A DNA stretch of 64,000 bases from Haliclystus octoradiatus (lineage: Eukaryota > Cnidaria > Staurozoa > Stauromedusae > Haliclystidae). The stretch lies in NCBI GenBank assembly GCA_916610825.1, contig OU744446.1:18321131-18385130 (forward strand). Reading direction: 5' to 3'. Below are positions 14,011 to 58,222 of the stretch, in pieces; position 1 is the stretch's first letter, and the number at the start of each line of letters is the position of its first letter. The notes under the pieces were generated by a model that was given only the letters and a program-made list of their open reading frames with translations, had not been told where the DNA came from and made no database searches. The position numbers were made by a program, and so were the translations under genes.

Positions 14011-15293
14011 CATATCAAACTTAAGGGTGACATCCCCTTAGATCTTCTGCCGCATTCAATATTTATGATTATGGCCGCTAAGAAGGCTTACTACGTAAAA
14101 TAGTTTAAAACATTAAAAATTTAATGCTTTATAACGCAAATCTATAAATGAACCTATGGAATCCATTAGATAAATATACAAGTTTGATAATAACGTGAAC
14201 GATTTTTCTTTATTAGATAGTTTGGGCTCGGGAAATCGTGATTATCTTCCATGAAGTTTTCTCCGTGAAATTTGTTGTGTCTACTATGGTTTGAAATTCC
14301 CGCGCATAGGAGCTGCCTTTATTAGAGACCAGGGTTAATTTGTGATTCGCAATATCCCGGATGAACAAACAGATTTTGGATCAGCGTTTTTCAAGGATTG
14401 TTTTCATATCAAATTTGTCGTATTTCGTTGAGGTTTGCTGCTTTTCGAGATGTTAGCCAAATTTTTATATTTTGCGTTCATTTGTTTACAACTACTTGGT
14501 AGCCATGTGGCTGTATCTTAAGAATTCTTCGGAGAATGATAACGATGACATCAACTCTGTCACTCTGATTGAATCAGAGTGAGTCTGATTCTGTTCTGAG
14601 CAACGATCATCAATTCATCATAATCATCAGAAAATAATGGACTTAATGAAGTATGAAATGTGGTCAGTTTACAGTTAGCTACTATTCATGCAGAGTCGAG
14701 CTGCTTACAAACATTTTCTATAATTTGTATGAGTAGGCCCCTATCAAGTATTATATAACAGAATGTTTCCAAATTTGAAGTTTACAGTTTTTTACATTTT
14801 AGATAATATCAATGCGCAAGTTAAGTTTCATACAATGAATTTGTATAATTTTCATGTATCAGTATCTAGTAAAATACCAACGATTTTCAATTATGGATTT
14901 CTTAAACTCCTTGATGTATGGACATGTTGATTACAGTTTCAATACAGGTTTGCTTCGATCTTCGATGATGTTTTATTCTTTTGACTCTTCTAATATTTCA
15001 CAGTTTTAACTTAACATTATTTAGTACTTATGTTGTAAAATTATTCTGAAAGCAGCTATTATGAATGATATGGACATTGAATTATAGGCAAATTTATTTT
15101 CTTATCAATGTGACTTTCTTATTCTTGCTTGAGCGCCGAACGTTGTTGCTGACATTCATGTTTTCTTTTGAGAAAGTTAAGAAAATGACGGAGACAGGGG
15201 CTGCGGAAGTTTATTGCGCATGCGTATTGTGGTAAATCTAGACCTCAGAAATTTATCAAAATGTCACCTCTCAACAGAAAAGAGTTTGATATG
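14011..15293. mobile_element. 1.28-kb TIR element inserted in Gypsy pol
   Basis: The tips are inverted: CATATCAAACTTAAGGGTGA at the left, and on the opposite strand at the right CATATCAAACTC followed after a gap by GAGAGGTGACAT. Both sides are flanked by TT, but the true duplication could also be TA inside the tips. The host pol reading resumes across the two edges. The interior has no sizeable ORF; it includes a GCGCATGCG palindrome near 15218. The superfamily is unknown; a 2-bp duplication would suit several. Confidence 0.7.
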
Positions 15294-16928
15294 TTCTGAT
15301 TTAACACAATAGCTACGGTGTCTATCATTGATTGAAATGACTTCAGCAATTTTGTCCCAACGATGAGAGATTGGATCTTGAATCCGAACAACATCACCAT
15401 GAGCCAGAGGACAAAGGTTGCGAGAGTGGAGATCGTACTGACGCTTTGCATTTGCCTTCAAAGTGAGTGATTTTTTATCTGCTTCTTCAAGTAGAGCTTT
15501 TATGTCCAAAGTGAATTTAGCTGGATTGATAGGTAATCGAGTGCGCACAGGCTTACCAAACAAACGTTGAGCAGGGCTCAAGCCATCATTGCGTGGAGTG
15601 TTGCGATACTCCAGTAATGCATTATAAAATTCAGAGGTATGAAGCTTGCCGTTGGAAGTCGTCTTGATCACAATAGACTTCATTGCCTTGACAGCGGCTT
15701 CTGCGTGACCGTTGGCAATATCGTGATAAGGAGAGGATGGATCGTGATGGATCCCCCACTCTTGATAAAATGACTTGAATTTATGACTGCTAAATTGAGG
15801 ACCACCATCAGATGTGAGACGGACAGGTACACCCATTGTGCATAGCCAGGCCAAGAACACTTGGATGACGTCATCTGTGTCGGTACCACAACCACAATTC
15901 ACAACCATTGGCCAACCACTATACTTATCAGTAATAACTAGGAAGTCAATACCAGAATGTTGGAACAAGTCAGCAGAAATACACTCACCAGGACGTGATG
16001 GAGGTAAATCTTGTAGTAGTGGTTCTTTACCCAATGAAGGTAACCGTTCTGCACAAGCTGAACATTCACGGACCAAAGTAACAACATTGTTGGTAATGCC
16101 AGGCCAGAAAACACATTGACGGGCACGAGCAAGGGTGCAATAGCGCCCCAGGTGAGCTGCATGAAGGTCAGCAAGGATGCCAGGACGTAGTGCGATTGGG
16201 ATCACCAGACGATCTTTGAATAGTACAATGTCATCATCCAGAAGTGAAAGATCATGTCGAACAGACCAATATGGATGGAGGCTGTCATCTAGGTTGGACT
16301 TGTCCGAAGGAAAGCCACACCTTAATTGAGAGTGAAGCTTGAGGTACACTTGATCCATTTTGGCTTCAGTACGGAGACGAGTCAGATGAGCATCTTCATC
16401 AGAGGATGAGGTAATGGATGCGATGGCTGAGAAATTTGATGATTGATGTTGTTCAATATCATCTTCAGGATCAGCTGGTGATACCGGAAAGCGAGAAAAT
16501 ACATCGACTACGGTGTGCTTGCTTCCCGCACGCCAAACAGCAGTGAGTTGGTAGCTTGATAACTTTTCTTTTAGACGAATCAGACGATTGCTTGGGATGT
16601 CACTGAGTGCCTTAGCGTTGATGATAGAAATTAACGGTTTGTGATCGACCACTAGTTCAAAGGTGGTACCACGGAGGAACAGATGACATTTTTGGACAGC
16701 CCAGACCACAGCACAAAGCTCAATTTCAGTCGCAGAGTAACGACTTTCAGCGTCAGTGACGTATCGAGACCCACATTGGAGAAGTTTCCAAGAGCCATTA
16801 GGTTGTTCACACCAAAGAGCATAGCCAAGTTCTTTTGACTGAGCAGCATCTGTTTCAAGGCGTAGATTTGCCTGATGATCGAATGCACACAGGACACGTG
16901 GAATTGTCAGGACAGAGATGAGTTTCTC
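15264..16928 (-). pseudogene. Gypsy pol, RNase H and integrase part
   Basis: The frame is open from about 16928 to 15264. RNase H-like sequence comes first (LETDAAQSKELGYALW, SATEIELCAVVW, VVDHKPL). An integrase zinc-binding region follows, with HAAHLG and later CSACAE, then the catalytic core with D in ISADLF, D in LTSDGGPQF and E in GHAEAAVK. The three catalytic acids are all present. The frame stops shortly after YCVKSEH, where the inserted element begins. Upstream it is joined to the reverse transcriptase only through a frameshift near 16929. Confidence 0.9.
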
Positions 16929-18412
16929 AAGGCTTGTTGATGTGCACCTTCCCAGAAAAAATTCTGCTTTGTGCTCAAAAGTGCTCTTAGTGGTTGTGAG
17001 ATCACAGCTATATCTGGAGTGAACGTCTCAAACTGTTGTACCAGGCCACAGAACGAACGCAAGTCACTGCGAGTGCCAGGAACAGGAAACTTTTGAAGTG
17101 CGTCTACCAGGTTTGGAATGACAGTGTAGCCAGATGAGGACAGTTGATAGCCACAACAAGAGACAGAAGGTTGGGCCAGGAACATCTTCTTTGGATTGAG
17201 TGTGATGCCATGTGCTGAACAGCGTGTTAGAACTTCATGGACACGTGCCAGATGGGTTGCCAGATCACGGTCGTAGATGACTACGTCTTATACAATTTTG
17301 CGAAGGTTGGTGATGCCAGCCAGAGCTTCGTCACCACGTCGGTTGTGTTCATCGCCTGCACTACTCAAACCCATAACATTGCGTAGAAAACGATAACAAC
17401 CCCAAGGAGTAATAAAGGTAGTCAAGTGCCGGCTTTCTGGGGAGAGGGCAACTTGCCAGTACCCATGGCGAGCATCTAGGGTAGTGAAATATTTCATACC
17501 AGGAGGTATTTGTGAAATTTCCTCTCGTGTGACCTTTGCTGGGTACCCGGGACGTTTGACAAAACGGTTCAGGGCAGTCAAATCGACAGTTATTCTAGGT
17601 TCGTTGGAATTCTTGTTAGGGACGACGACCATGGGGTGGATCCATGAAGGGGACTCTCCGAGGGGAACCTTCTCAATGACACCTTTGCTGACCATTGAGG
17701 ATAACTGGATTTGGACTGACTCTTGCCAGTGGAAGGGGACGGTGCAGGCCTTGTACCTCTTGACAGGGATGGCATTTGGCTCCAATTCAATAGAAATTGG
17801 AGGACCAGACATAGGGGAGAGGGGTCCGTCTATATTAAAGACCGTAGGAAACTCGCTGATAAGATCAGGGATCTCAGAGGAAGGGTTAGGGTTGACATCA
17901 GGACCTTCCATTGGTACAGTGTTCTGGGCAGTGGCAGGACTGAGAGAAACGGCTGAGACATTATGGGGCCAACTGGGAGGGAGAATTCCAAGGGCTATAC
18001 AACCATGTTTACTTAAGAGTGGTGCATTCAACTCCTCGACTACATAGACATTGCAGGCATAACTATGGTCCTCATGAGATAGTTTCATGGGACATGTACC
18101 GATTACGGGCAATTTGCACTTGTCTGCCGTAAACAATTCTTTTGAAGGAGGGTATAAGTTCAGTTCTAAATCAGGGTCTAGGTGGGCTAGAGTGAATCGG
18201 CTGATAACATCACAGGCTGCACCACTATTGGGTAACCAATTCAATGGGGAGGTACTCCGATAAGTGGTGGTTGGTAATGAGATAGTCTCAGAAGACATTG
18301 CTATATTTCCAAGGTAAATATGATTCTGTGACTTTGATTGTTGCACAGCAGCTTGTGCTTTTTTTTGCGACAAACCACTTGATAATGTCCAACTAAACCA
18401 CAAAAGGAACAC
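16907..18412 (-). pseudogene. Gypsy pol, protease and reverse transcriptase part
   Basis: The protease region reads WLPNSGAACDV: the invariant active-site Asp of D-S/T-G-A is Asn here. Reverse transcriptase blocks follow: IHPMVVVPNKNSNEPRITVD, FTTLDARHGYWQVALS and WGCYRFLRNVMGLSSAG. A stop codon at 17288-17290 falls at the first position of the catalytic DD pair (context KIV-stop-DVVIYDRD). The frame then continues to 16907 as thumb and connection. A 1-base frameshift near 16929 separates it from RNase H. The protein could not be functional as written. Confidence 0.9.
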
Positions 18413-19536
18413 TGGGCTTCCTTAGCGGGACATTCAGGGCGGGGATGGGTGTTTCTCCCACAGAAGTTACATTTCCCACTTGGCTTAGACTGGGAGTTAG
18501 ACTGTAGTTGTGGTTGTGAAGTCTTACTCGATTGTTTACGTTTGGATTTGGATTTCCCAGAACTGACAGCTTGAACTGTGGAAGGTTTGGGCTGGGAGAG
18601 TTTGCTCTGGGTGCTTTTGCTAGACTCTTGAGCTGTGCAAATATCTAGTGTCTTCTGGAGGGGGAGAGAAGTAAAAGATTCTGCCAAAACCTTTTGTTGT
18701 GTGGCACTATCTTGAATGCCACAAATTAATCTGTCTCTGAATCTGTCATCACGGTAGATTTGAGAAAATCCGGTGTCTAGTTGACAATGAGGGCATGCCT
18801 CGGTAGGGGAAAACCCACAGCTCTCTTCGATCAATCTGAGGGCGGCACAGTACTGATCAACGGTCTCACCTGTGTGTTGACTGCGAAGGTGAAATTCCTT
18901 TCTTTCCAAAAGGGGATTCCTTTGACGTCTGAGGTATTCTCCCATCTTTTGTATGATGTCATCGATGTCGTCGGTCTCCTTTATGTCTAGAACACTGCCG
19001 GTCCACAATTGCGACCAATCTTCATCAATGGCAGAGGGAAGAATACTTCTTCGAGCAAGTAAATTACAATCGTGACGTATCCTTGTAGCTTCACTGTATC
19101 CAAGAAAACGTTCTTTCCAGTCACGAAATGCTGATAACGTTAATGATGATGGTGATTTCAGCTTCGGTACGTCCATGCATTTGGCAGCACCTCTACTTGG
19201 AGTTCGGTTGTCGCCATCTTGTCTTGTTGAACCTTGATGTAAATTTGTGACAAGGCTATTGAGAGCTTCTTGAAATGAATGTTGCTGTGATTCTTGAATA
19301 GCGTTTTGCTGTTCTTGCTGTTGTTTTAAGACAGTTGTTAGAAGAGACAGCACATCAGCTTGATTATCTATTGTTGTTGTTGATTCGGCTTCGGTTTGAC
19401 GGCTTGTTGGTGATTGTGAGCGGTCATTGTTGTCTTCTAGTGTACGAAGTCTTGTTTCTAACGCTTCACGAAGACGTGTTTCTTCTTGGAGTTTTGATTT
19501 CAACTTTTGTGTTGCTTTACTTGGACTATTTGGCAT
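18301..19536 (-). CDS. gag: Gypsy gag polyprotein
   Basis: A 411-residue frame starts at an ATG about 115 bases inside the 5' LTR. It has a Lys/Glu-rich helical N-terminus, Gln-rich middle, then a capsid-like region (LRRQRNPLLERKEFHLRSQ, GETVDQYCAAL). Two zinc knuckles follow: CNFCGRNTHPRPEC (C-x2-C-x4-H-x5-C) and CSFCGLVGHYQVVC (C-x2-C-x4-H-x4-C). It packages element RNA in virus-like particles in this family. It overlaps pol by 112 bases in a different frame. The open frame is intact. Confidence 0.92.
   Translation of the reverse strand: MPNSPSKATQKLKSKLQEETRLREALETRLRTLEDNNDRSQSPTSRQTEAESTTTIDNQADVLSLLTTVLKQQQEQQNAIQESQQHSFQEALNSLVTNLHQGSTRQDGDNRTPSRGAAKCMDVPKLKSPSSLTLSAFRDWKERFLGYSEATRIRHDCNLLARRSILPSAIDEDWSQLWTGSVLDIKETDDIDDIIQKMGEYLRRQRNPLLERKEFHLRSQHTGETVDQYCAALRLIEESCGFSPTEACPHCQLDTGFSQIYRDDRFRDRLICGIQDSATQQKVLAESFTSLPLQKTLDICTAQESSKSTQSKLSQPKPSTVQAVSSGKSKSKRKQSSKTSQPQLQSNSQSKPSGKCNFCGRNTHPRPECPAKEAQCSFCGLVGHYQVVCRKKKHKLLCNNQSHRIIFTLEI
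18359..18366 (-). promoter_or_regulatory. Gag-pol frameshift site (A8 run)
   Basis: Eight A residues on the coding strand lie just after the second zinc knuckle. Gag reads R-K-K-K across them; pol reads Q-K-K-A one base back, so a minus-1 slip at the run fuses gag to pol. This is the standard strategy of many Gypsy elements. The position inside the 112-base overlap supports it. Confidence 0.75.
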
Positions 19537-19922: not shown

Positions 19923-20849
19923 GGTATGGTTATCAACATGATGTGATTGGCTTGTTTATGTGTAGTGCGTTATCATATTTCTGTCAATCGGTGATCATAA
20001 TTTCGCACCAGTCTGATTGCTCCTCCAATAGCTTGGTTTGATTTCGCACTATTCGGATGATGTATCTGAAGCATTCCTCGCAAAGAACTCGAGTAGTACC
20101 CAATCAAAGTGCCCTATCTAGAATTTCCAGCATTTTTCGCATTGGGTTGCACCCCCAGAGAAATCTTAGCAATAAAAAGTCTCGCTTGATCATTGTTTTT
20201 GTCATGTGAAAATGATGTTGGATTTCGCCTCCTGTGACTACCAAATCAAATTCACAATGGCGACGATCAAAGGTGTTTTCTTATTATTTTAGATTTAAAA
20301 ATTATTATTTTAAATTGTCCCCGTTGTAAAAAAGCAATAAGGATGGAAGGGTTGAAATTAGTATTTCAATTGGAGATTTTGAAGGGCATTTTTGTAAGGA
20401 AATGTTGGGCGTAACGAATAAGGAATATGTAACTTATCCGAATTGCAGTTTCTATTATTAGAGCGTTCTCGTGCAGCAAATCTCGCCCATGTCTGGAAGG
20501 CCTATACTTGATTGATTTTCATTTTGATTTACTTATGTATTTAATTATATGTCACCGTTTCTATATCTTTCTTGTTTACATTTACCCTACGTTTATTTTC
20601 GATTTTGTCATGCTTTAGTAAATTAATGATTTAAAGGCATTTGTCGGATTATATTGATGTCTGTAGTATTCAATATCCAGAATTTGCATCTTGAAAGTTA
20701 CGTTCAAGATGTTCTACGGGTTTTATTTTCAAAAACAATTCCTAGGGGGAATGTACCCGCCTATTAGGGTGCGGTTTTTCCCCTCTTCGGCCGGACTCCA
20801 CTCACTTTCTTGCACAAGTCAATTTCTCGGCTGCATCCACCCCTAGTAT
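19923..20849. other. Non-coding spacer between Gypsy and ISL2EU elements
   Basis: About 930 bases without a supported gene. No repeat boundary seen beyond the flanking target duplications. Confidence 0.5.
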
Positions 20850-20928
20850 AGAGCGTTTTCCTGTGACGTCACACGCCCTTGAAAATATTGCGGCGGCCAT
20901 TACGGGTTCCAATATTCTAGTTGAGAAA

Positions 20929-21474
20929 ATGGCGAACGCAGAAGTGAACTCAACTGACGTTGAAAATAATGAGATACCTCTATCCAATTATGCTCAAAAG
21001 TTGAAGAAACATGTGAGAGAACGCTATTTACAAAAGATTGCTATTATTGGTGTGGATTCATTATTAATTCCCGATGTAAAGTTTGATGGAGATAACCTTC
21101 CTCCTATCGAAGCGACAGACATTTTTTCTTATCTTGTTATGGATACGAGTCATTACACTCAACAGCAATTCAAAGCGTTTAAAAGCCTTTAAGCTTACAA
21201 CCAGATGATTTCAGGTTTCATTACTAGTATTTCTGCTTGTATTATAAAAGATATTTACGTTTTGTTTGGTAAAGTCAGACATTCCCAGCGAATCAATGAT
21301 CCACCCATTCCATTGTGGATTTTGACAGACAAAAAGGGAACAATTTTATGTGCACATTGCATTGGTTGTATGGCTGGTTTGGGCGATCTATGTTCACATG
21401 TTGCTAGTATACTTTTTTATGCAGAAGTGTGGACAAGAATTAATGATAAACTTGCTTGCACACAAGTCAAATGA
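20929..21474 (+). pseudogene. N-terminal and SWIM-like segment of the YqaJ protein
   Basis: The segment ends in CAHCIGCMAGLGDLCSHVAS, whose Cys and Cys-x-His spacing recalls SWIM zinc fingers, followed by a hydrophobic LFYAEVW helix. A TAA at 21190 interrupts after FKAFKSL and a TGA at 21472 follows CTQVK. The frame itself is maintained throughout. SWIM motifs bind DNA or protein in transposase-related proteins. Confidence 0.75.
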
Positions 21475-22680
21475 ACATGGCTGCTTCCAACAACTGTAAA
21501 GGAGGTATCTTATTCGCCTGTAAAATATATCAATTTTGCATCTACCAAAAAAAGAAAATCATTGCTTAATGAAGCCATTGAACATGCAGCTAAAGATTTA
21601 TATAGTAATAAAACTAATGATAAGTCCAAAATCATTCCTTCGCCTTCACCTTCAGAGCTTGCAATATTTCATGCTGCTCTTAACAAATGTGTCATAAAAC
21701 CAGTTTCACTTAGTTTGGTTTTGGATTACGCTGAACAATTTATTAGTAAGAGCAGAGATCTTTCAACAATTATGGATTTATATAATCAACAGTATTTATC
21801 TCTATCATATGACCAGCTGTTAGTTAAATGTGATTCCATAAAATTAGACATTGACGAGAAACACATAAATCTCATAGAAGAAGACACCAGAGAGCAATCG
21901 CAAGGACAGTCCTTCTATCTGCATAGAGCTGTTAGAATTGGTGCGTCATCAAGCTACAGTGCAAGTCATTCCAATCCAGCACAGCCTTCACAATCTTTAA
22001 TCAAGAATTTATGCTACCCAGAGCTATTCAAATTTTCTTCAGCTGCTACTGATTTTGGCTGCAGGCATGAAAAGCTTGCAGTACTAGCTTTTGAAGCTGC
22101 AATGAAAATTGACCATACAAACTATTGTATAACACCATGTGGACTATTTGTCAGCAAAGATCACCCATTTATTCATGCTACTCCGGACTTTTTGTCATAT
22201 TGTGACTGTTGTGGGGAAGGGTGTGGTGAAGTGAAGTGCCCCTACTGCCTTGATGGAATGGATTTCCAAGCATATATGCTTAATCGTAACTGCTGCTTGA
22301 TAAAGAAGGACGACGACAGGTATCATTTAGATCCAGCACATCCTTATTTTTATCAAGTTCAACAGCAACTGGCCATTACAAAAGTCAAATTTGCTGATTT
22401 TTTCGTGTGTAGATTTGATGGAAGCGATATAGAGTTTATCAGTGATAGAATATGTTATGATTTAGATCACTGGAAGGAGACTTTTCAAAAGTTAGAAACT
22501 TTCTGGAAATTTTGTATTTTGCCTGAGGTACTTGCCAGGTGGTACACCAGAAAGGAAAATATTTTAAAATTGCATTCAAGTGAATGTAATGTCTCATTAA
22601 CTTGTTTTTGCCAGCAGAATATTGACGAAGAAACTGTTTCATGCAGAAACACTGACTGCCCTATCAAAAGGTACCATCCC
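21475..22680 (+). pseudogene. YqaJ-type exonuclease segment
   Basis: Counting from the Met at 21562, the PD-(D/E)xK core has E170 in GCRHEKLA, D209 in ATPDFL and E223-x-K225 in GEVKCP, then HPYFYQVQQQLAIT, the Tyr/Gln helix typical of YqaJ and lambda-exonuclease relatives. All catalytic positions are present. A CDCC...GCGEVKC Cys cluster sits at the active-site strand. A PHD-like finger starts at CFCQQNIDEETVSC, and the frame is lost near 22670 within it. Confidence 0.85.
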
Positions 22681-22984
22681 ATGTCTTCAAATGAATGTCA
22701 ATCAAAACAAATTTCCGATTTCATGGTTATGTCCAAACTGTTCCAGATTACCTGAATTTAAACGGCAAAAAACAGTTAATCAAGATGTCAAGCTTACCAT
22801 GGAAATTAATATTATTTGCTCTTGCAAGAAAGCTTATTGTAAAGGCGATAACATTATGAAATGCTGCAATATCAACTGTTCTAACGGTAAAATATTTCAT
22901 CTGGATTGCCTTGGCTACAAGAGAAGGCCAAAATACTATAAAACAAACTGGTACTGTAATACTTGTATAACAGAAAGTGCTTAA
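22671..22984 (+). pseudogene. PHD-like finger segment
   Basis: After the frameshift the reading gives WLCPNC, completing the first finger. A second follows: CSCKKAYCKGDNIMKCC, then HLDCLGY and WYCNTC, a C4HC3-like arrangement. The segment ends at a TAA (22982). PHD fingers read histone tails, so targeting to chromatin is possible. Confidence 0.7.
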
Positions 22985-23593
22985 TTAGCAATTGAAGTAG
23001 TTGTATCATCTGAATCAGATAGTGACGAAGATCTTGCCCTGACTCTTGTTACTGTAGGTACGTCCCGTAAAAGAGCTACTCTAGCTAAACTTACCGATGA
23101 ACATTTCAATATAATTAGCAGCAATGGTTGGCTTGATTGCGACATAATTCATCAGGCGCAAGTACTGCTGCAGAATTTGAGTCCATCTATGGAAGGGCTT
23201 CAGCACCCAACACTTGGACCCTGTCGAAATTTTGGCACTGTGAAATCATCATTTGTTCAGATTCTCCACACTGGTACCTCCCATTGGGTTTGCGTCAGCT
23301 CTTCTAGTAGTGAAGGAACTGTTTACCTGTATGACAGCCTCTATCAAGGAAAATGTAACATTGAAACGATAAGGCAAGTCAAAAATTTAGTAGGTAATGT
23401 TTACAAGGAAATTATTTCCATACCAGTATGTCAACAAGACAACCATAGTGACTGTGGTATTTATGCAATTGCATTTGCAACTAGTTTTTTATTAAACACA
23501 AACCCTGCTGACTTTAATTTTGATAAATCAAGAATGAGAATTCATTTGTTAGATTGTTTAGGGTCTGGAATTATGAAAGCATTTCCAGACTAA
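22985..23593 (+). pseudogene. Ulp1/SENP-type cysteine protease segment
   Basis: It continues in the same frame after the stop at 22982, with an acidic SSESDSDEDLALT linker. Counting from the Met at 23177, the triad is H36 (SHWVCV), D53 (LYDSL) and C93 (HSDCGIYAIAF), with a Gln at 86-87 for the oxyanion hole. This is the C48 peptidase pattern that cleaves SUMO-like proteins. The domain ends at a stop, 263 bases before the palindromic spacer. Confidence 0.85.
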
Positions 23594-23855
23594 TATTTAC
23601 AATTTTAGATTTTCTATTTATGTAAATACATCATCAAATAATTTCTTGTTGTTTATTCCATAAATCTTAAAACTTATATATCAGCATATCGGCAACAATG
23701 TTTTATGTGTTTTGCTTAATTTTTGAATATATTTGCAGCTAAATACTCGTACAAATTAGTGCATTAATTCAAGTTAATGAATTTAAGAACCAATAAAGTA
23801 AACAGTAAAGTTCATGAAAATCTTAAAAATGTGTAGTACTGTAACATTATGGAAA

Positions 23856-23962
23856 GTTCATGAAAACGGAGCCCTTCAACATTCATGAACTTCATAAACC
23901 TTGTCCATGTTTAACACAGTTTATGAAGTTCATGAACGTGGAATGACTCCATTTTCATGAAC
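23856..23962. terminator. Palindrome between the convergent transposon genes
   Basis: The left arm begins GTTCATGAAAACGGAG and ends TTCATGAACTTCATAAAC. The right arm is its imperfect complement across a loop of ~20 bases. Further GTTCATGAA words surround it (23809, 23964, 24015). Its place between two convergent genes suits a two-way 3'-end or barrier element; that function is inferred. Confidence 0.6.
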
Positions 23963-24532
23963 TGTTCATGAAAAGAGATAATTTTACAATTTTGAGTTGA
24001 CTGGTTCGTAAACTTATGAACTTGTTTCACATAGATAATAGATTATAGAAACTCAAACTTGTTACTAGTTAATTGGCATTATTATGAATGCCTAGTAGCT
24101 ACTAAATGCCACTACAGTAGCATGATCATGAAATTCATATTATTTTATCTCTTTACTCCAGATACAGAAATTTGTATAAATTATCTAACATACTTTTGCC
24201 AAACCATCTCTCGCTTGTTACTTGCAAAATTATTACCTATTAGGTTGTATCATTCAGAAGGTAGATCCACAACAAACAACATCTTAAATAGCAAATCAGA
24301 CAAGAATATAATTCAAGTAATTAAAAAGTTACCGTAGCTAATCGATGTGACGTGGTATTTGCTTAGAATATAGAATACAGAAGAAGCAGTATGTGAGCAG
24401 TGAACATTCCTTGCTTTAATTTGTGAATACTAATGTTGTAAAATCTATATAAATAATGGTAATTACTGCAAGATATTGCCAAAGATTGTTTACTAATATG
24501 ATACAGTAGTTGCCCATGATTGGTAAATAAAA

Positions 24533-26094
24533 TTAGTCATAGTAAAAATGAAAAATAATACTATGTGAAGGCATATTGTTATAATCAAAAGGTATGATAG
24601 GTGCGCATAGGTTTACAAGTGCAGAACATACTCTTATGATACTATCAATTGTAGGAACATCATTTGACCCACTAGGTGTCATGAAGTCAATTGGAAGTGT
24701 TCTTTCCAGAATGCTGTACTTTTGACGCAACAGTCCAATTACTCTTTCAACATGAATTCTAACATTCGCAATTGTCCTAGTTTTCTCAACATCGATTGGA
24801 TCAAGTTGATCAACACCCTTGATAAATGCGGGGATTGCCAGTTCTGCACCTGTCATTGTTACACTCTCCTGAATGGTAAAACCTCTATCTGCGAGAACAT
24901 AATCTCCAGGCAGTAAGTTTTTCAAAATGCCACAGTTCTCTGTTAAAAATTTGTCTGAGGTTCTACCACCCCATGCTTCAGAGACAAAGCTAATTGTACC
25001 CTGAGGGGTAATTCCAATCAATACCTTGACAGTGTTATGATGCTTATAATTGGAAAACGTCTGCGCCCGTGCTAATAGGTTGGATGGACGCTCAATAAAT
25101 ACTTCGAAACAATCTATGATGACTACTACCTTGTGTCCAAAGGCTTTTTGGTAGCATTTTGGGATCGTAAACCATAATTGTTCTCTGTTAGGCCATGATA
25201 TAAGTGCAGAGAGTCTGGCATCAAGAATAGGCATCCAGCTTGAAAATATCTTTGAAATAGCAGACACTGACATCTCAAACCGATATGCTAGATCCTTGAA
25301 CGGTACACCCAAGCGTAGCTTTATCAAGACTGCCACAAATTCTTGAAATAGACTCAATGTTGTATTTTTCCTATTCACAAAAGGAACCACGAATTCGTAA
25401 GTGGTAACCAATATTTCATAGCTTGGCAAACCAGTATAATCATCAAAGTATGACTTTTCAAACGGATTTAAATTTGATGTAGGCATCAAGTATTCAAATT
25501 CTGATGTCTGGGTCGATGAATCAACGTATTTCAAAGGTTCATAGTCACCATTAGCAATATCAAAACCAACAATTTCATCTTGGTCGTAGTCAGAGCTTTC
25601 AGCCTTATCGGTAATTTGTTTATCGTCATCCAGTTTTGATAATTTCAATGCTAACTCAATATCAGCATTTTCAATCATGCGCTTTTTTCGCTCCTGTGTT
25701 CTTATAGCTCTTTCACAAGAACCTTGACTTTTAACTTGGAGACTTTGGTATGCCCCAACAACAAACTTGGAACCCAATCAGGGTTATGTTTATCAAATGG
25801 CCGAGCAGCTTTACCACTGACAAAATGTTTATCACAAACACGATCATTTCTTAAAATCTTTTCAGTTATTCCCACCCTACTAATAGCTGATATCCAGAGG
25901 GTTCTTCTTTGAGTCGAGAGGATTTTAGATGCTTCTCCTTGGTTTGTTATTATCTCTGGAACTCTTGAAAAGTGAACTTTCTCTACGACGACGTCAGTTT
26001 GGTTTTTGTTTTGACGTTTGCCAGTCTTTCGGCCACATCCAACTATTAAACACATAGGCATACTGATAATTGATGATTTAAGTATTTGTAACAA
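24533..26094 (-). pseudogene. THAP-DDE (DDE_4) transposase of the ISL2EU element
   Basis: The N-terminal frame (26094-25702) is a THAP domain: C-x4-C in CLIVGCG, FSRVPEI, LWISAISR, CDKHF (C-x2-H) and DWVPSL near its end. The catalytic frame (open 25777-24533) has a helix-turn-helix region ([24 protein letters not shown], split here as about residues 158-181), D222 in [10 protein letters not shown]297 in VLADRGF and E344 in [10 protein letters not shown]. The DDE triad is complete and there is no stop in the catalytic part. A frameshift between about 25777 and 25702 separates the two domains. It is expected to bind the tips and cut and paste the element. Confidence 0.88.
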
Positions 26095-26273
26095 CGAGAA
26101 ACAACGTATACAAGTGGTATAATCAGTGATCGTCGATTAATGAAAACTAACAGCAAGCGCCACCAAATTTCAACTGCGTTTTCAACCGTGCGTTTTCAAA
26201 AGATTAGGAACCCCATAATGGCAGACGGAAGCTATAGTGATGTTGCCTGATGACGTAGGGGAAAACGCTCTAT

Positions 26274-34570: not shown

Positions 34571-35819
34571 AATAAAAAAATTAAATGGATTAAAGGCTGT
34601 AAGAGTCATAGTCACTAGTCACAACAAAGATTATATTTACAAATAATAATAGTAGCAATAATTATTTTTCTTTCAATAACAAGTAACTTTAATTCGAGTA
34701 ATAACAAGCAAAATGCCAGAAGCAATAACTTTGCGAGATAATTTTATGCTTGAACGTTTCGAAACGTTGATATCTGTCTCTCCATGCTTCGTAGTGATCG
34801 ATAGTAATATGGATTTAACTCTTTCGATTTAATCTTTTAAATATAAGATTTAAATTATTCTACAATAATTTTCGATTTCAAAACATAGTTAAATATAAAA
34901 TTAAGTAATAGAACATTAGCACATCAGAACGCATTCTATTTTTTGATGATCGAGTGAGCGAGTATTTTAAGTTTCTGAGTTATACTGTACAACGAAGAAA
35001 TTCTAAATCTAAAATAAAATCTTTAAATCAGCTTTAAAATCCTTCACTTTAAAATAAATAAACTAAATGTATTTTCCAGCAAATTGTCATACCATACCAA
35101 TAAATCTTCAATTGTTAAACTGTTAACAATAAACTGTTACAAATTCAAGGGACTTGTAGTATTTCTTGGCGACTTAGCTGTTTTGAGGATCCGTAGTATA
35201 AGAACGATAATAACCACAATGGTTCACAAATAATTCAAAAAAGCAAAGTAAAAAATAATGGAATATCTCATTAATCTCCAGATAGAAGGTAGAAAGTGAA
35301 TAAAAAATTGTAGCAATCAGGTAGAATTGAATTAGATGGTATGAAATAAAAATAATGACAAATAATAAGTAAATTTACGGGAGCTCAAACAAACACTTCT
35401 GAAGCTAAAGCCGCAATCGAACATTCTATATTCCCACTCTTTGCAATATACAACAGATTGTTCTTTGATTCTTTGAGCAAAGACTTCAGCAGAACAACTG
35501 ACCCCATACAGAAAAGCATGACACTTGAAGCTACAGTATAAGAATGTGTGGTCTCTGACTCCTTTCTATTTCTATATTATTATTATTTACAGCTCTGCCA
35601 TTTATGACATTAAGCACTATATTATTTGCTAATAGATAACATCTAACAATATATACAATATATATATGTATACTGTCTATTGCGTATAGTGTATAGTATA
35701 AAGTGTTTGTGTATTGTGTATACAGTGTATCTAGTGTAATTGTGTATATAGCTGTAATGATATCACACGTTCACATATATAGTATAATCGCAGCATGATT
35801 GTAACGTTTGATGACACTA
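34571..35819. other. AT-rich non-coding stretch
   Basis: Nothing recognised. A TATA/TGTA-rich degenerate microsatellite lies at 35640-35760, just before the pentanucleotide tract. Confidence 0.5.
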
Positions 35820-36253
35820 ATAGAATAGAATAGAATAGAATAGAATAGAATAGAATAGAATAAAATAGAATAGAATAGAATAGAATAGAATAGAATAGAA
35901 TAGAATAGAATAGAATAGAATAGAATAGAATAGAATAGAATAGAATAGAATAGAATAGAATAGAATAGAATAGAATAGAATAGAATAGAATAGAATAGAA
36001 TAGAATAGAATAGAATAGAATAGAATAGAATAGAATAGAATAGAATAGAATAGAATAGAATAGAATAGAATAGAATAGAATAGAATAGAATAGAATAGAA
36101 TAGAATAGAATAGAATAGAATAGAATAGAATAGAATAGAATAGAATAGAATAGAATAGAATAGAATAGAATAGAATAGAATAGAATAGAATAGAATAGAA
36201 TAGAATAGAATAGAATAGAATAGAATAGAATAGAATAGAATAGAATAGAATAG
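35820..36253. repeat. (TAGAA)n pentanucleotide tract, ~430 bp
   Basis: About 86 tandem TAGAA units with only one visible variant (TAAAA near 35861). Since 5 is not a multiple of 3, all minus-strand frames run as a FYSIL pentapeptide repeat; the apparent 176-residue ORF is meaningless. The near perfection implies recent expansion. Confidence 0.97.
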
Positions 36254-38194: not shown

Positions 38195-40800
38195 TCAAAT
38201 TATTAGCTGATGATGCAAAGCTGTTTGCACATCCATTTGATGTATTTCCAGATCAAGCTTGTTGGCAATGACCAAGATTGATCTGATTGAATTGAATTTC
38301 GCTACTGGAGCGAACGTTTCTTCAACATCTACCTCTTCAGGTTGACCATACCCTTTTGCCACCATTCGTACCTTGCATCTTTCCACGTCGCCTGCAACAT
38401 TTATTTTTGTCATAAATGCTCACCTGGAAACAATCGCTTTCTTTTAGGAGGAACTCAAAAAATTCCCACGTCTCATTCAAATTCCGATTCAAATTCGTTG
38501 TCCAAGACATTTTTCCATTCCTTCTTTTTGTCTGAATTCATGGCTCCTTTGATCGATTGGGGCTCTGTATGGTCAACCATGTTCGTACTGAGTGCATGAT
38601 TGTTTTTCCACCATTCACCAGTAATGGTTGGCCCATAACGGTCCGGCGCAAGTATTGATCTTCTCAACTGTCTTTGACTGTCCTGATCAGTTGCTGGATC
38701 ATCGGCTCCTTGGATTTTTTCTGCTGGCTGGATATCTGCCTCTTTATCATGATCGGCAGCATTTTCACTTGACTCATTGTCGTCTGAGGTATTCGGTAAA
38801 TCAATATCTTCCCCCTGCCCTGCAACTGATGCTGTTTTTCGTCACCGTCCCGATTTCCAAACTTTTCCTCGTCATATTGAACATCTCTCGACACATAAAG
38901 CTTCTTGCTCTTTGACTCCCACAAACGATAACCCGTCTTTTGCATGCTGTAGCTAATGAATATACATTTGTTAGATTTTTGAGTCCAACATTCGTTTTTT
39001 CTGCTTTGGTATGTGCCTAAACGCATCACACTCGGGTTCTTAATGTTTGGCTTTGTGCCTGTAGACAGCGTGTATGGCACTGCCCCTTGAACAGCTTTTG
39101 TTGGGGATCTATTCCGAAGAATCGCTGTAGTCACAACAGCTTCTCCTCAAAACGAGTATGGGTGTTTCGCAGCATGATTTCAGCCCTTGCAGACTCAACT
39201 ATAGTCCTGTTTTCCCTCTCCGCAAACTCCATCCTGCTCCAGTGTGTAATCGTCGCTTCGTTGCCTTTGAATACCATTCGTCTTACACAACTCTTCAAAT
39301 TCTTTGGTTGTACATTCCATGCAATTGTCAGTTCTAACTTTCTTGATATGTCTTCCTGTGAGATTTTGAAGCATGGCATTGTATTCACGAAACTTGCTAA
39401 TCGCTTGGCTTTTCTCTCTCATCAAATAAACTGACACATGTCTTGATTTGTCATCGATGAATGTGATGATGTATCAGTGATTGCCATGAGAACGGGTTTA
39501 CATGGGACCACAAATGTCACCATGAATAATCTCTCCAACCTCGTTTACTCTTTTGGCCTGATTCTTTGGAAATGGCTTCCTGGCTTGTTCCCCCATTATG
39601 CATCCTTCGCAAACACCTTGTCTTGCTCCCCCGCCATCTCCCGCCATCACCTTTGATGCAGTACTGCACTTTTTATTGTCCTCGCATTTATGTACTGTAC
39701 TTCTGCAATCAACAAATACAGTTTCATTCCTAGTTGACATACTCCTGATCCTACTTTGTCACCTTTCTTGTCTTTGAGGAAGCATTTCTTACCTTCAAAT
39801 TTTACTTCAAAACCTCTAGCCGTGATCGCCTTTACTGACAACAGATTCTTCGCCAGATCCGTTACATGTAATACCTTAGCAAATTGACCATCCCTGCCTC
39901 CAAACTCCAAACTCCCATCTGGCATTGCCAATTCCAATGCATTGAACCACTCTGTCATCTCCCAACTTAATTTCCCGTGACTTATTCAATCGTCGATAAG
40001 TACTGAATTGTGATCTATTGAAACACATGTGACATGAAGCACCGAATCAACATATCAATCGCCATTCTCAGACTCTGTGCCATTTTCCTCACCAAGGAAC
40101 AGAAATTCCCTTCGGTTACTTGATCCGTTTGCCTCTTGCTGTTTGTTTGACCTGCTGCCTGCTTTCTTCCACGTCCCTTTGCAATCCCTTGAAAAATGTC
40201 CCGTTTTTCCAAATTAAAAGTATGCCGACTTCTTGCAGTCACGTGCGATGTGACCTTTCCATTTGCCCTTGAAGCATGACCGTGTAACCTTTCAACAACA
40301 AACTCCATTGTTAGAGAGTCAGCTCTTGATTCCAATGCAACAATCAATTTTCCAAAGAAGCCATGATGACTACACAATAACGTCGCGACTTGATCATCTT
40401 CTGTCACAACAGCGCCAACCGATTCCAATTGCTCGACAAGCCCTCTCATGATATTAATGTGGTCTACTATGTTTGCATCTTCAGATATAACAGTCTGGAA
40501 GTATTTCTTCTTCAAGAACAATTTATTCGCAAGTGACTTCACCTGATAGTGACACTCCATGCTTTTCCACGCTTCGCTAGCACCGTTGCTTGACTTCACC
40601 AATGACAACGCCGTGTCACCAAGAGACAGACATATCGTTGCGAAAGCTTTTCTCGCTTGCTTCCTGTATTTGTCTTTTGCTTCCTCTACAGTGGGTTATT
40701 TATCCTCTCCACTCACAATCTCCCATAAACCTTAGTCTTCAAGAACCATCTGCAGCTTGAACTTCCACAAGTGGAAATTTTGTCCCTCGAACTTTTCCAT
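38195..40800 (-). pseudogene. Ty1/Copia retrotransposon, truncated and broken
   Basis: On the minus strand from 40800: gag (MEKFEGQNFHLWKFKLQMVL, with two early stops, then SLVKSSNGASEAWKSMECHY). The pre-integrase and integrase follow (CEGCIMGEQARKPFPK, HGDICGPM, KVRTDNC, GVCGEGKQ/VAEREN-type block). After a linker (GYRLWESKSKKLYVSRDVQY) comes the start of reverse transcriptase (CKVRMVAKGYGQPEEVDVEE, FAPVAKFNSIRSIL, MDVQTA). The reading is in at least seven frames' worth of fragments. It ends abruptly in RT motif A at about 38240, where the inverted LINE block begins. No LTRs were found. Confidence 0.88.
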
Positions 40801-48400: not shown

Positions 48401-49234
48401 CTATTCCTTCGTAGATGGCAATACCAGGCCAAAAAGGTCATATTCCTTTCTCAGCTTCTTCATTACAGCTTTTTTCAAACTCAACGGTACGTTACCCATA
48501 ATCCTTTGTTTAGTTAATTCTTTTTCAGATTTGGTTTGATAGTACTTCTGCTTAATTGGATAGTGATCATTTTCGTGTCCTAATTTCTCTAATATAAACC
48601 TGGAATCATCTTCGATATGTTCCATATCTCCTATGAAATCATAGCTCATCCAGCATGGTTCACACCAAGAGGAATACGAACACCAATGTGGATCACTTAG
48701 CGTCTGACTTGTTGCTAATATATATCTTAAAAATTGTTCAAAAGTGACCATCCATTTGGGAGATTTATCATCTGATTTTCTCACATCAGTGCGGTTAAAC
48801 TTTTTAATAGCACTATCAAATGAAGAATGATAATATGATTTAGGGTCTAGATTTGAACCAAATTTATCCCAGTAAGCAGAAAACAGCCGGTCAAATGGAT
48901 CACGAATGATCATAAATTTAAAATAAGTCTTAAGTAACTTCTCCTGTTCGCTAGAATTGTAATTGCTTAAGTAGGTAAACTGCCTGTAATTGATCTCTTT
49001 CTTTTGTGTTATTCCTTTCCACCTTGAAAACAAACGAAGCCAATTGGATGAACCAACTTTAGCCAATCCACAAAATATTGCTTTCTCTTCTGGTAAAACG
49101 ACAACATGGTTGAATAAATATTGTCGAACAGATTTTGTTAAACCGTTAAATATATCGAATTCTTTACGTCTTAGGTGACATTTTCTTTTTAAATGCTCCT
49201 TTTTAGTAAACATCCGTGATGTAATGTTACTGAT
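48401..49234 (-). CDS. Carbohydrate sulfotransferase, catalytic exon (Sulfotransfer_2/HNK-1 family)
   Basis: Transfers sulfate from PAPS to a sugar on glycoproteins or glycosaminoglycans in the Golgi. The 5' phosphosulfate-binding loop is CGLAKVGSSNWLRLF and the 3' phosphate-binding loop is IIRDPFDRLFSAYWDKF. The family box CEPCWMSYDFIGDMEHIEDD follows, with a HW...C upstream. The ORF is undamaged to its stop. It opens upstream to 49279 only via a GTG; a good acceptor (TTATGTTCCAG) ends at 49235, in frame with ISNITSRMFTKKEH, so I start the exon at 49234. The membrane-anchor exon must lie further right and was not identified. Closest known types are CHST8-14-like; the sugar acceptor is unknown. 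This is the best host gene in the window. Confidence 0.92.
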   Translation of the reverse strand: MSNITSRMFTKKEHLKRKCHLRRKEFDIFNGLTKSVRQYLFNHVVVLPEEKAIFCGLAKVGSSNWLRLFSRWKGITQKKEINYRQFTYLSNYNSSEQEKLLKTYFKFMIIRDPFDRLFSAYWDKFGSNLDPKSYYHSSFDSAIKKFNRTDVRKSDDKSPKWMVTFEQFLRYILATSQTLSDPHWCSYSSWCEPCWMSYDFIGDMEHIEDDSRFILEKLGHENDHYPIKQKYYQTKSEKELTKQRIMGNVPLSLKKAVMKKLRKEYDLFGLVLPSTKE

Positions 49235-49619
49235 CTGGAACATAATTAAATGATTAAAATGGCTTGTAATTTTTTTCACTTTTATTTAATTTATTTTGTC
49301 AAAGTTGATAAGAAAAAAAAGGAGAGTCACATAATATTATCTCTCATTAAAAAGTAGGCTAGTAATTTGTAGTATCTATATCAATATTTTCCAAAGCTAT
49401 TTACTCCGACCATGCATGTATTGAATGCACAATTTTTCACGCTAGAAATAAAAGATGGATCTCCCTCTGTAACGAACAGCCGGGGGACCAGGGGGGGGGG
49501 GTAAATTACATAATTTTGGCGTATAAATAGTAAAGAGTACATTTTTAAAATTCGGGAGAAAGATCTAGAGTATGCTTTACCACAATAAATTCGATGACCG
49601 ACTGACAATTTAAAGTTTA

Positions 49620-54875: not shown

Positions 54876-55631
54876 TCATATTCCTATTTCATATGAATCA
54901 TCAAAATCTTCGTCCTCAGAAATTTCATCTTCTGCAGCTAACTCCTTGATTAATGGGCCTTGAAAGTTAGTTAATAAGCAACATACTGACCATAATTGCT
55001 GAATCGTACCTGCCAATCTCAACGATAAAGGACTGTCAAACAGATGATACTCTCTGAATCGTCGAATGGCTCGCTCGACATGAACTCTGAGGTTTACAAT
55101 TTTCTCGTTGTATAGTTGCTCCTCCTTTGTAAATCTAATTTTTCTTTCAAGGAAGGTAGAAATATCTACAGTGCAACCAAGTGGAGCCAGAAGGGAATCA
55201 ATTTTGAAACCTTTGTCGACCATGATACTGTCATCAGGCCCTAACAGGTCTAACATACCAGATTCAGAAGTAATAGCAATGTCGGAAATACTTCAAGTAT
55301 ACAACATGCTCACAAAGCTCATATGGAGAACTATAAACGAGCTCAAATGGAGAACTACCAACCAATTCCTTCAAGATAGTTGTCCTTCATGGCTAAATGT
55401 CTAAATATTTCAGAATTTGAATACTAGAATTGAAGGATATTGTGTCTTTAGTTCAGTACAGTCCAGAATCACTGTCACGGAATCGTTTACTTGACTTCTT
55501 GTTGGCCAAAATGGTTGAGAACCAAGAACACAATATAAAAAGTTAGCCCATGAAGTAATGTTTCTGCTCACAGTAGATTGATATGTGTTAAATTTATCTG
55601 GTAATTCTTGGTTAAGGCTTCCAAGGATCAA
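54876..55631 (-). pseudogene. Second DDE_4 transposase, catalytic part
   Basis: 55631-55410 reads LGSLNQELPDKFNTYQSTVS, SWANFLYCVLG and VTVILDCTEL (first catalytic D). 55280-54876 reads SDIAITSESGMLDLLGPDDS, MVDKGF (second D), LRVHVERAIRRFREYHL (E) and an acidic tail to a stop. About 130 bases between them (55280-55410) do not fit, so the middle of the core is lost or replaced. The N-terminal THAP and helix-turn-helix parts lie at 58950-59750, on the far side of an inserted LINE. Confidence 0.8.
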
Positions 55632-56015: not shown

Positions 56016-57347
56016 TTAACCATAGCCAAAAATTTTGCAATGTGATAACGTGTTTACTTTTTCGAGTGATGCCTTGAACTCTTTGACAGTCTTAGAATTA
56101 ACTGCGAAGTCCGGTAGTGAGTTCCACCATGGTATCACTCTGTTGTTAAACATAAATTTCGTAATATTGGTCCTACACATTTGCGTTGAATATAGTTTGT
56201 AAGGATGACCACGCATTGTATATTTGTTTATAAGATATTTACAATTTATCGAATCAAGAGATAAATCAATTAAGTCATGCGTGATTTTATAAATCATGAT
56301 TAAATCAGCTTTAACCCTCCTCGACTCTAATGATTCTAGCTTGAGGAGCTTTAGGCGATCACAGTAATCAATAAATTTGAGATTGGCAGCGTTACATATG
56401 AATCTTGTAAAAAATCGCTGAATTTTTTCTAGCAATACAATATCTTTTGCTAAGCAAGGGTTCCAAACTGGGGAACAAGTCTCTAGAATAGGTCTTACAT
56501 ATACTTTGAATGCATTTAATAATAATAAGGGATTTTTTGATGTAAATGATTTCATAATTAAGTAAGAACGTGAATACGCTTTTGCTGCTATCATTGAACA
56601 ATGAGACGAAGGCTTCAAATCGGACGTAACTATGATACCAAGGTCTCGAATTCTATAAACTGTTTGTAAGTGATGACCATCTAAATTGTAGGAAGTATTG
56701 TTACAGTTCGGTTTAGATGTTGTAAACAAGGAGCACTTTTCGAATGCTATCCTCAGCTGCCAAGTTTTCGTCCATTGTGCCAGATTTTCGAGAGTTTTTG
56801 ATAAATTTGCTGAAGTCCCGTTTTTTCGGGCAGAATAAAATTTTGAATCGTCTGCAAATAAACTTACTTTACAATCACCTTCAAGGCAGTCAGCAATGTC
56901 ATTTATGAACAATATAAATAATAGAGGTCCCAATACGGAACCTTGAGGAACACCACTAACTACATTCGAGGGTGACGATAAACTATTACCAACAGATACT
57001 CTTTGGGTACGACCGGTTAAAAAAGAAGATATCCAAGTTAGTAATTCATAGCCTATGCCATAAGCTTTCAATTTGATAAGTAACCTTTGGTGACTAACGG
57101 TATCGAACGCCTTGCTGAAATCAATGTAGGCGGCGTCTATCTTAAAACAGTTATTCAAGGCCTTACTCCACTCGTGTAGCGTATCCAGTAATTGTGTGCA
57201 GGTTGATCGTCGGGCAAGGAAACCATACTGCTGTTTTGAAATAATGTTATTAACTAATAGATATGTACCAATTTGTGAATTGATTATAGATTCCATGACT
57301 TTACAGATGATGCATGTTAAAGATATAGGTCTGTAGTTCTGTCTCAT
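56016..57347 (-). pseudogene. LINE reverse transcriptase
   Basis: A 443-residue uninterrupted frame: NYRPISLTCIICKVMESIIN, QYGFLARRSTC, AAYIDFSKAFDTVSHQRLL (catalytic D76), SGVPQGSVLGPLLFILFIND, FADDSKFY (D166-D167), IRDLGIIVTSDLKPSSHCSM, SPVWNPCL and a C-terminal thumb ending FKASLEKVNTLS. All catalytic residues are present. It copies element RNA at the target nick. Clade CR1/L2-like by motif style. Confidence 0.92.
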
Positions 57348-58222
57348 TGAGGATTTTCCTTTTTAAAAATAGGAACAACAATAGCGGTTTTCCAAATTGT
57401 AGGTAGCTCTCCGCTTAAAATTGATAGTTCGAATAGCATTGACAAAGGCAGTGATATTTCATAAGCGATTGACTTCAGAAATAGGGCCGGATATCCATCA
57501 GGTGAACGCGATGTTTTGTTTGGAAGGCTATGTAATGCCTTCAGAACATTTAAAGAAGAAAATTTAATAAAATTGAGATTTTTCTCTGGATTTACCTTGC
57601 TTTCAAATGCTGGACTTGTTCCATCGTCTTGGCTAAAAACTGAAGTAAAGTAATCATTGAGAATTGTAGATTTGTCGATGTCATCAATTCGTAGTTCATC
57701 ATTAACATCATAAATTGGAGGTATTGAAGGCTGCGAGTGTAATTTTGAATTTACGAATGAATAAAACCTTGTAAGAGAGACATCATCAAGAAGAGAGCTT
57801 TCACGTTTAATGTTATGTTCTTTGACAGCATTATCGTACTCACGAGATAGAGATTTATATATTTGCTTTTGTGTATCGGAATTGTTACGTAATCGGTAAG
57901 CACATCGGCGTCTTAGCATTAGATGTATTATTGTTTTAGGATATTTTGATTTACGTGAACTGTTGTTGGATGTTGGCACATGTAATACTATAGCTGTATC
58001 AAGAATGTTACAAATGCTGTCCCAAAAAGAGTGGACATCTTTATTACAATTGTGGTAAATGGATAACCAATCAACGTGTTGTAAACTTTGACATATTGAT
58101 GGATAATCTGCCTTGCGAAAATTACGATTAATAGATCTTTTGCTATGTGGATGTAATGGTATATTAATTGATATTTCAATAGCGTTATGGTCATTTGTTT
58201 GTGAATGGTTATGCAACATCAA
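57344..58222 (-). pseudogene. LINE linker and start of reverse transcriptase
   Basis: Begins with DHNAIEISINIPL (end of the endonuclease). A basic helical linker follows (KYPKTIIHLMLRRRCAYRLR), then LPNKTSRSPDGYPALFLKS and GELPTIWKTAIVVPIFKK, reverse transcriptase blocks 1-2. It ends at a frameshift near 57350 inside the block that precedes NYRPISL. Confidence 0.85.

Follow-up and report, generated by a model that had tools for sequence, protein, structure and literature searches.

A two-gene ISL2EU-type DNA transposon of Haliclystus octoradiatus whose helper protein joins YqaJ, PHD and Ulp1 domains

The stretch analyzed here, called the window, comprises 64,000 nucleotides of Haliclystus octoradiatus (assembly GCA_916610825.1, contig OU744446.1, forward-strand positions 18,321,131 to 18,385,130). 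At 20850-26271 it contains a decayed copy, about 5.4 kb long, of a DNA transposon with perfect inverted tips and an AT duplication. The element encodes a transposase and a second protein, here called the helper, where SWIM-like, lambda-exonuclease-type YqaJ, PHD, PHD and Ulp1 parts follow one another in one chain. Its features are listed below, in window coordinates; the window copy belongs to family A, while B, C, E and F are further families of the same genome.

20848..20849, no strand: left AT of the target duplication (both flanks are AT in 13 of the 14 copies with two ends fetched)
20850..20861, plus: left terminal inverted repeat, AGAGCGTTTTCC (arms 100% complementary)
20864..20871, no strand: palindrome TGACGTCA just inside the left tip (direct reading; also in families B, C, E, F)
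20929..23593, plus: helper gene, 896 amino acids in complete copies, broken here
21358..21399, plus: SWIM-like zinc motif, C..C...C.H (conserved pattern)
21922..22383, plus: YqaJ / lambda-exonuclease-like nuclease domain (Pfam YqaJ E 3.3e-12 in window pieces)
22600..22741, plus: PHD finger 1, ING-related, cage letters absent (a frame change falls inside)
22817..22966, plus: PHD finger 2 (Pfam PHD E 0.0073)
23075..23590, plus: Ulp1/SENP-like cysteine protease domain (Pfam core 23261-23536; His, Asp, Gln and Cys in place)
24584..26061, minus: transposase gene, 500 amino acids in complete copies, broken here
24611..25117, minus: DDE catalytic domain (Pfam DDE_Tnp_4 E 2.6e-52)
25208..25360, minus: helix-turn-helix (Pfam HTH_Tnp_4 E 4.2e-17)
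25762..26052, minus: THAP zinc finger (Pfam E 1.3e-07)
26260..26271, minus: right terminal inverted repeat, reverse complement of AGAGCGTTTTCC (right-end match search)
26272..26273, no strand: right AT of the target duplication (both flanks are AT in 13 of these 14 copies)

An earlier note, made from the letters alone, had proposed that tips and AT duplication delimit one element. This is borne out: each of the two AGAGCGTTTTCC tip forms is present once in the 64 kb, the AT flanks are confirmed, and the 12-bp tips nest inside a 14-bp perfect inverted pair, which takes in the duplication. The genome searched consists of 262 Mb in 33 contigs. A 341-bp query from the left end produced 41 matches, 11 of which, besides the window, show 98% identity over 340 query bases. 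Twenty stretches were fetched around the better left-end places: ten contain complete copies of 5,467 bp each, which share these ends and the bordering AT and lie in different flanks. Pairwise differences range from 0 to 4 bases (mean 1.56 over 45 pairs); such near-identity at different places indicates very recent movement. The window copy, about 97.8% identical to the complete ones over its own length, is an old, broken member of a DNA transposon family that is autonomous and was active very recently. Exact 23-base left ends occur 15 times in the genome and right-end matches 16 times, the window included in both, while a reversed-pattern control for the left ends gave 0: chance is thereby excluded, and the ten complete copies in different flanks rule out an assembly artefact as well. 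Among these 15 left and 16 right ends, no amplified non-autonomous family-A copies were seen; deletion derivatives of the element exist (L020, L021).

Both genes are broken in the window copy. The helper is interrupted by stops at 21190-21192, 21472-21474 and 22982-22984 and by a frame change near 22680; in the transposase a frame change falls between about 25729 and 25762, and the stop is lost, so that the frame extends to 24533. In each of the ten complete copies, helper and transposase are convergent, tail to tail, and each is read in a single uninterrupted frame. The helper of one copy, L009, is a 917-codon open frame, giving 896 amino acids from the first Met. The same frame is open in 11 family-A copies, the eleventh being L014. 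Since its domains lie in different frames in the window, the helper might be taken for separate genes, or nested insertions, misread as one. The single open frame of the family-A copies rules this out, and the domain order is equal in coral and amphioxus proteins; the probability left to such an artefact is negligible. The joining of YqaJ, PHD pair and Ulp1 in one chain, which the earlier note had put forward and which is not readable in the broken window, is thus demonstrated by the ten complete copies, and there is hardly any doubt about the identity and architecture of the element as described.

Conservation of the helper was evaluated on the best 120 of 143 relatives, found by a protein search whose scoring was limited to the 7,994 candidates with most words in common; the named ones belong to amphioxus (Branchiostoma), an anemone (Nematostella) and corals (Oculina, Stylophora, Montipora, Acropora). 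In the SWIM-like part the pattern of C.C or C..C and then C.H is conserved, with C144 present in 114 of 116 relatives, C155 and H157 in 115 of 116 each; Pfam returned no SWIM match in seven proteins scanned at E up to 10. YqaJ scores 47.8 bits in the complete helper, against a cut-off of 22, and both its catalytic Glu-Asp-Glu-Lys set and its fold match. The nuclease residues E389, D428, E442 and K444 are nearly invariant in the relatives having a letter there. The same is true of five cysteines (433, 435, 436, 440 and 445) around the catalytic D428-E442-K444 stretch (window about 22201-22239); they possibly form a metal site. The PHD fingers are weaker matches: in the window Pfam gives 16.8 bits (E 0.0073), under the cut-off of 24, and in the complete protein the two fingers resemble ING chains of the PDB at E 2.5e-04 (residues 562-614) and 8.4e-05 (639-688). 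Peptidase_C48/Ulp1 is found at E 1.3e-08 in the window and scores 32.1 bits in the complete helper (cut-off 20.7); its fold matches SENP, NEDD8-protease and some ubiquitin-protease structures, and H794, D811, Q845 and C851 are nearly invariant where relatives have a letter. The fold comparison mainly concerns residues 317-547 and 725-892; residues 1-316 and the PHD folds are barely covered. For the transposase, the presumed triad D324, D399, E446 is preserved in all six aligned families, and a comparison with PDB sequences gave just two chance-level matches.

Helper and transposase are also linked throughout the genome. After merging, 58 helper hits correspond to 47 places and 95 transposase hits to 78. 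A convergent transposase lies within 9 kb of 43 of the 47 helper places; 43 transposase places have a helper hit and 35 do not. Seven of these 35 show a correctly placed C48 match, one of them being L034. Four flanks were fetched from the 35 places, and two of the four (L034, L036) contain helper remnants. Of 50 Peptidase_C48 matches found by a genome-wide profile search, 42 have a convergent transposase no more than 9 kb away, an arrangement with a chance expectation of about 0.16% per match; another is a helper remnant (C5:20507573), and seven lie elsewhere. Among the latter, C8:21196594 is a strong match outside the transposon, probably in a host-type gene. The other six are G000:C7:3586502, C2:17630198, C5:4648335, C10:17114388, C1:22800685 and C1:9283562; of these, the C2, C5 and C10 matches score almost alike and perhaps represent a further small repeat family. 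The common pairing of helper and transposase, together with the conserved catalytic residues, would also suit a protease that tunes the transposition machine itself, taking a SUMO-like tag off transposase or helper and so setting the dose of transposition. This explanation is improbable.

The pairing is not limited to family A. Both genes are open in families A, B (L028), C (C2:8338336 and 8340776) and E (L030), and the helpers of B, C and E, which reach residue 895, are 47-69% identical to that of A. The ratio of nonsynonymous to synonymous change (dN/dS) between A and B is below one: 0.10 for the helper, 0.10 for its N part, 0.15 for PHD1, 0.06 for the transposase, 0.26 for the linker before Ulp1 and 0.275 for Ulp1, with dS near saturation and no value computable for SWIM, YqaJ, PHD2 and the HTH-DDE part. 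In the comparison with family E, saturation affects nearly every part; the linker gives 0.78 and 1.18 there. By this measure Ulp1 as a whole, unlike its catalytic residues, is conserved no more strongly than the linker. PHD and Ulp1 might be passengers, captured by accident and unused: Ulp1 is the least constrained enzyme domain here, and capture of Ulp1 by plant elements, such as the Ulp1-bearing Mutator/KIU elements, is repeatedly reported in the passages of PMC13317346 cited here. Yet zinc and catalytic residues are nearly invariant among relatives, the helper stays open to residue 895 in four such divergent families, and dN is below dS between A and B. The passenger explanation is therefore already largely refuted, and is given very little weight.

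Not all relatives contain the whole chain. Of the 120, 66 cover each of the six segments to at least 70%, and 41 are without a full Ulp1 part. Most of these Ulp1-short proteins stop raggedly inside shared sequence or enter unrelated letters; P0080 lacks the middle instead. They are scattered among complete ones in a quick tree (111 of 155 rows). Given ragged ends and scatter, they look truncated or mis-modelled, and were rejected as a separate architecture. The genuinely different class is a sister branch with one PHD, found by a second search with helper residues 101-560 (best 120 of 365 relatives). Its members (P0153, P0166, P0173, P0186, P0199, P0202 and others) feature a C.C SWIM motif, YqaJ and one C-terminal PHD, which in P0186 matches ING PHDs at E 8.2e-17. 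The two groups are separated at 100/100 support in a tree of 40 chosen proteins, built on the shared part, and a larger quick tree agrees. P0165, from Argopecten, has no PHD and is placed inside the sister group, so that a PHD-less form is not shown to be primitive. P0153 bears the label 'uncultured Candidatus Thioglobus', probably because animal DNA was binned with a symbiont; another relative, P0187 from Exaiptasia, carries a name after YNG2. Outside eukaryotes no relatives were confirmed in IMG/VR (58 pattern stretches) or in GTDB contigs (117), the deep origin of the nuclease being outside the scope of this search.

The two branches differ in the methyl-lysine cage of their PHDs, whose positions we take to be Tyr, Met and Trp, as in ING2. 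In the sister branch they are occupied by Y/F/W in 15 of 15, M in 14 of 15 (W in one) and W in 15 of 15. The remaining counts refer to PHDs caught by pattern among the 188 rows outside the sister group, 76 of which gave no match. First PHDs (112) have no aromatic residue, no Met and no Trp (F in 4) at the respective positions; second PHDs (93) have F/Y at the Trp position in 90, and I/V and L/I/V at the other two in 90 each. The ING trio is found in 0 of 112 and 0 of 93. Because the cage is absent, the PHDs of the Ulp1 branch probably do not read trimethylated lysine 4 of histone H3 (H3K4me3) as ING does. Chromatin targeting, which the earlier note offered as a model, is thus not supported for the PHD pair in its ING/H3K4me3 form, the cage letters of all 112 and 93 fingers differing from those of ING; other chromatin binding is possible. 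The simplest reading of these alignments is that a host ING-type PHD was captured, and that subsequently a second PHD may have been added, the cage lost and Ulp1 gained. A single addition of Ulp1, in one branch, is quite probable. The root of the tree was set by hand, and Ulp1 may have been lost in the sister branch instead.

The element ends are shared between families. B, C, E and F feature similar ends, A[GC]...TTTTC (searched under the condition of AT flanks), starting with AG in A, B and C and with AC in E and F. T precedes AT in 10 of 13 copies, A succeeds it in 9 of 13, and the context A-AT-T (A before, T after) is found in 0 of 13. The TGACGTCA palindrome is found no more than 25 bp from the helper-side tip in all five families read (left ends including L028, L029, L030 and L031), taking the form CACGTGACGTCA in C, E and F; at the right ends, TACGTCA or CACGTGA is present in four of five families. 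The palindrome, presumably CRE/ATF-like, may be a promoter box of the helper, whose ATG lies about 80 bp inward, or a transposase site.

The ISL2EU likeness and the YqaJ partner, both suggested by the earlier note, were found as expected. ISL2EU elements, a group of the PHIS superfamily averaging 4,840 bp, are described in the passages of Han et al. 2015 (PMC4482050) cited here as animal elements with a THAP, HTH and DDE transposase, a YqaJ second ORF (open reading frame) and an AT duplication; Pfam finds THAP, HTH and DDE in the transposase and YqaJ in the helper. The tips there are usually GG, against AG or AC here, and the A-AT-T target reported there is absent in the 13 copies, where T before and A after AT are commonest. 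Since domains and duplication agree while the target does not, the element is a variant of the ISL2EU type, not a typical member. The PHD pair and Ulp1 of its YqaJ protein are a further difference, neither word occurring in the main text of PMC4482050.

Single parts of this combination are known from other transposons. In Ginger1 elements (Bao et al. 2010, PMC2836005, passages cited), a C-terminal Ulp1 is known, and one Ginger1 of a cnidarian, hydra, has Ulp1 and PHD; the authors proposed a role in repair during transposition. The coupling to a DDE transposase is as here, but there the domains sit in the Gypsy-integrase-like transposase itself, while here the genes are separate, the transposase is of DDE_Tnp_4 type, and Ulp1 and PHD are joined to an exonuclease in the second protein. 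RAG-like transposons (PMC7204232) also pair, tail to tail, a DDE protein with a PHD-bearing helper. RAG2L, however, is a kelch propeller with PHD, with another transposase and a 5-bp duplication, and neither YqaJ nor Ulp1 is named in the passages cited; Pfam finds no kelch in our helper, and DDE_Tnp_4 in the transposase. Transposon-borne C48/Ulp1 is shared with Mutator/KIU elements (PMC13317346) and with some Cryptons, which encode a C48 peptidase (PMC3212892); these use other transposases or recombinases, and no YqaJ or PHD is named in what is cited of either source. Compared with lambda exonuclease, YqaJ and LHK-Exo nucleases, the present nuclease is distinguished by its fusion to PHD fingers and a protease, and by the five nearly invariant cysteines. 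No YqaJ joined with Ulp1 or PHD in a transposon was found in titles and abstracts of Creative Commons-licensed papers in PubMed Central, Repbase Reports being outside the scope. The novelty implied by the earlier note therefore holds in part: PHD or Ulp1 in a transposon is known (Ginger1, Mutator, Cryptons), whereas their union with YqaJ in one chain, as here, appears to be new.

As a whole, the data are best explained by an autonomous two-gene ISL2EU-type family with an end-processing and de-conjugating helper, to which a probability of about one half is assigned. Constraint on Ulp1 is low, and in the two remaining fetched flanks (L033, L035) no helper was found beside the transposase. The earlier note had named copies without the YqaJ-Ulp1 gene as its test, and the outcome is divided: 43 of 47 helper places are paired, and two of the four flanks fetched from transposase places without a helper hit show no helper in the sequence read. 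From linkage, single chain, conservation and predicted folds, all observed, we infer activities, tag and partners as follows. The transposase would cut and paste the element, while the helper would process the broken DNA and remove a SUMO-like tag from proteins at the break; this division of labour is plausible, with a chance somewhat below even. The transposase would bind the tips via THAP, excise the element and insert it at TATA-like sites. The helper would join it at the broken DNA, where the lambda-exonuclease fold would chew 5' strands back, steering the donor break to homology-directed repair, and the protease would take SUMO or a related tag off proteins of repair or chromatin that are retained at the break. 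Having no H3K4me3 cage, the PHD pair would act as a docking module.

The strongest rival is anti-silencing: the helper would reach the chromatin of the element by DNA contact and PHDs and strip SUMO from silencing factors, the nuclease serving otherwise. A parallel exists in plants, where Vandal elements with Ulp1-carrying VANC genes (KIU) are reported to make related elements hypomethylated, whatever part Ulp1 itself may have in this (PMC13317346, passages cited), and here the PHD fingers adjoin Ulp1 in the chain. The ING-type cage is absent, however, and a DNA-end nuclease in the chain suggests that the helper acts on broken DNA and not on silent chromatin, so that this alternative is rather unlikely, though to be taken seriously. 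A bolder form of the end-processing reading, itself a long shot, is that the element brings along a controller of break repair: a single protein might dock at chromatin, resect the excision ends and strip SUMO on the spot, so that the donor gap would have to be repaired by homology from the sister copy and cut-and-paste would turn into net copy gain, in a branch that would have traded a histone-mark reader for a SUMO-protease on acquiring Ulp1.

The rest of the window includes a second DDE_Tnp_4 fragment, of another transposon (54879-55292, E 3.1e-20), pieces of a long terminal repeat (LTR) retrotransposon in a GC-richer stretch (15267-18421; RNase H, integrase and a weak reverse transcriptase), a Copia-type gag domain (40018-40695, E 2.4e-30) and a reverse transcriptase open frame, probably of a non-LTR element (56019-57362, RVT_1 E 3e-35). 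An open frame of the Sulfotransferase family (48404-49285, E 1e-33) is possibly a host gene. Two tandem arrays are present: a satellite of 41-bp units with a 339-bp higher-order period (60744-62310), and 87 copies of the pentanucleotide AATAG, at 99% matches and open in several frames (35819-36253). Rfam and tRNA scans of the window gave nothing.

The family offers an experimental handle: complete, nearly identical, presumably active copies, a helper whose two enzymes can be separated and have named catalytic residues, and a sister branch one clear step away, with the ING reader but without Ulp1. That 42-43 of the 50 Ulp1-family matches of the genome lie in one transposon family matters for the annotation of SUMO proteases and chromatin proteins in animals.

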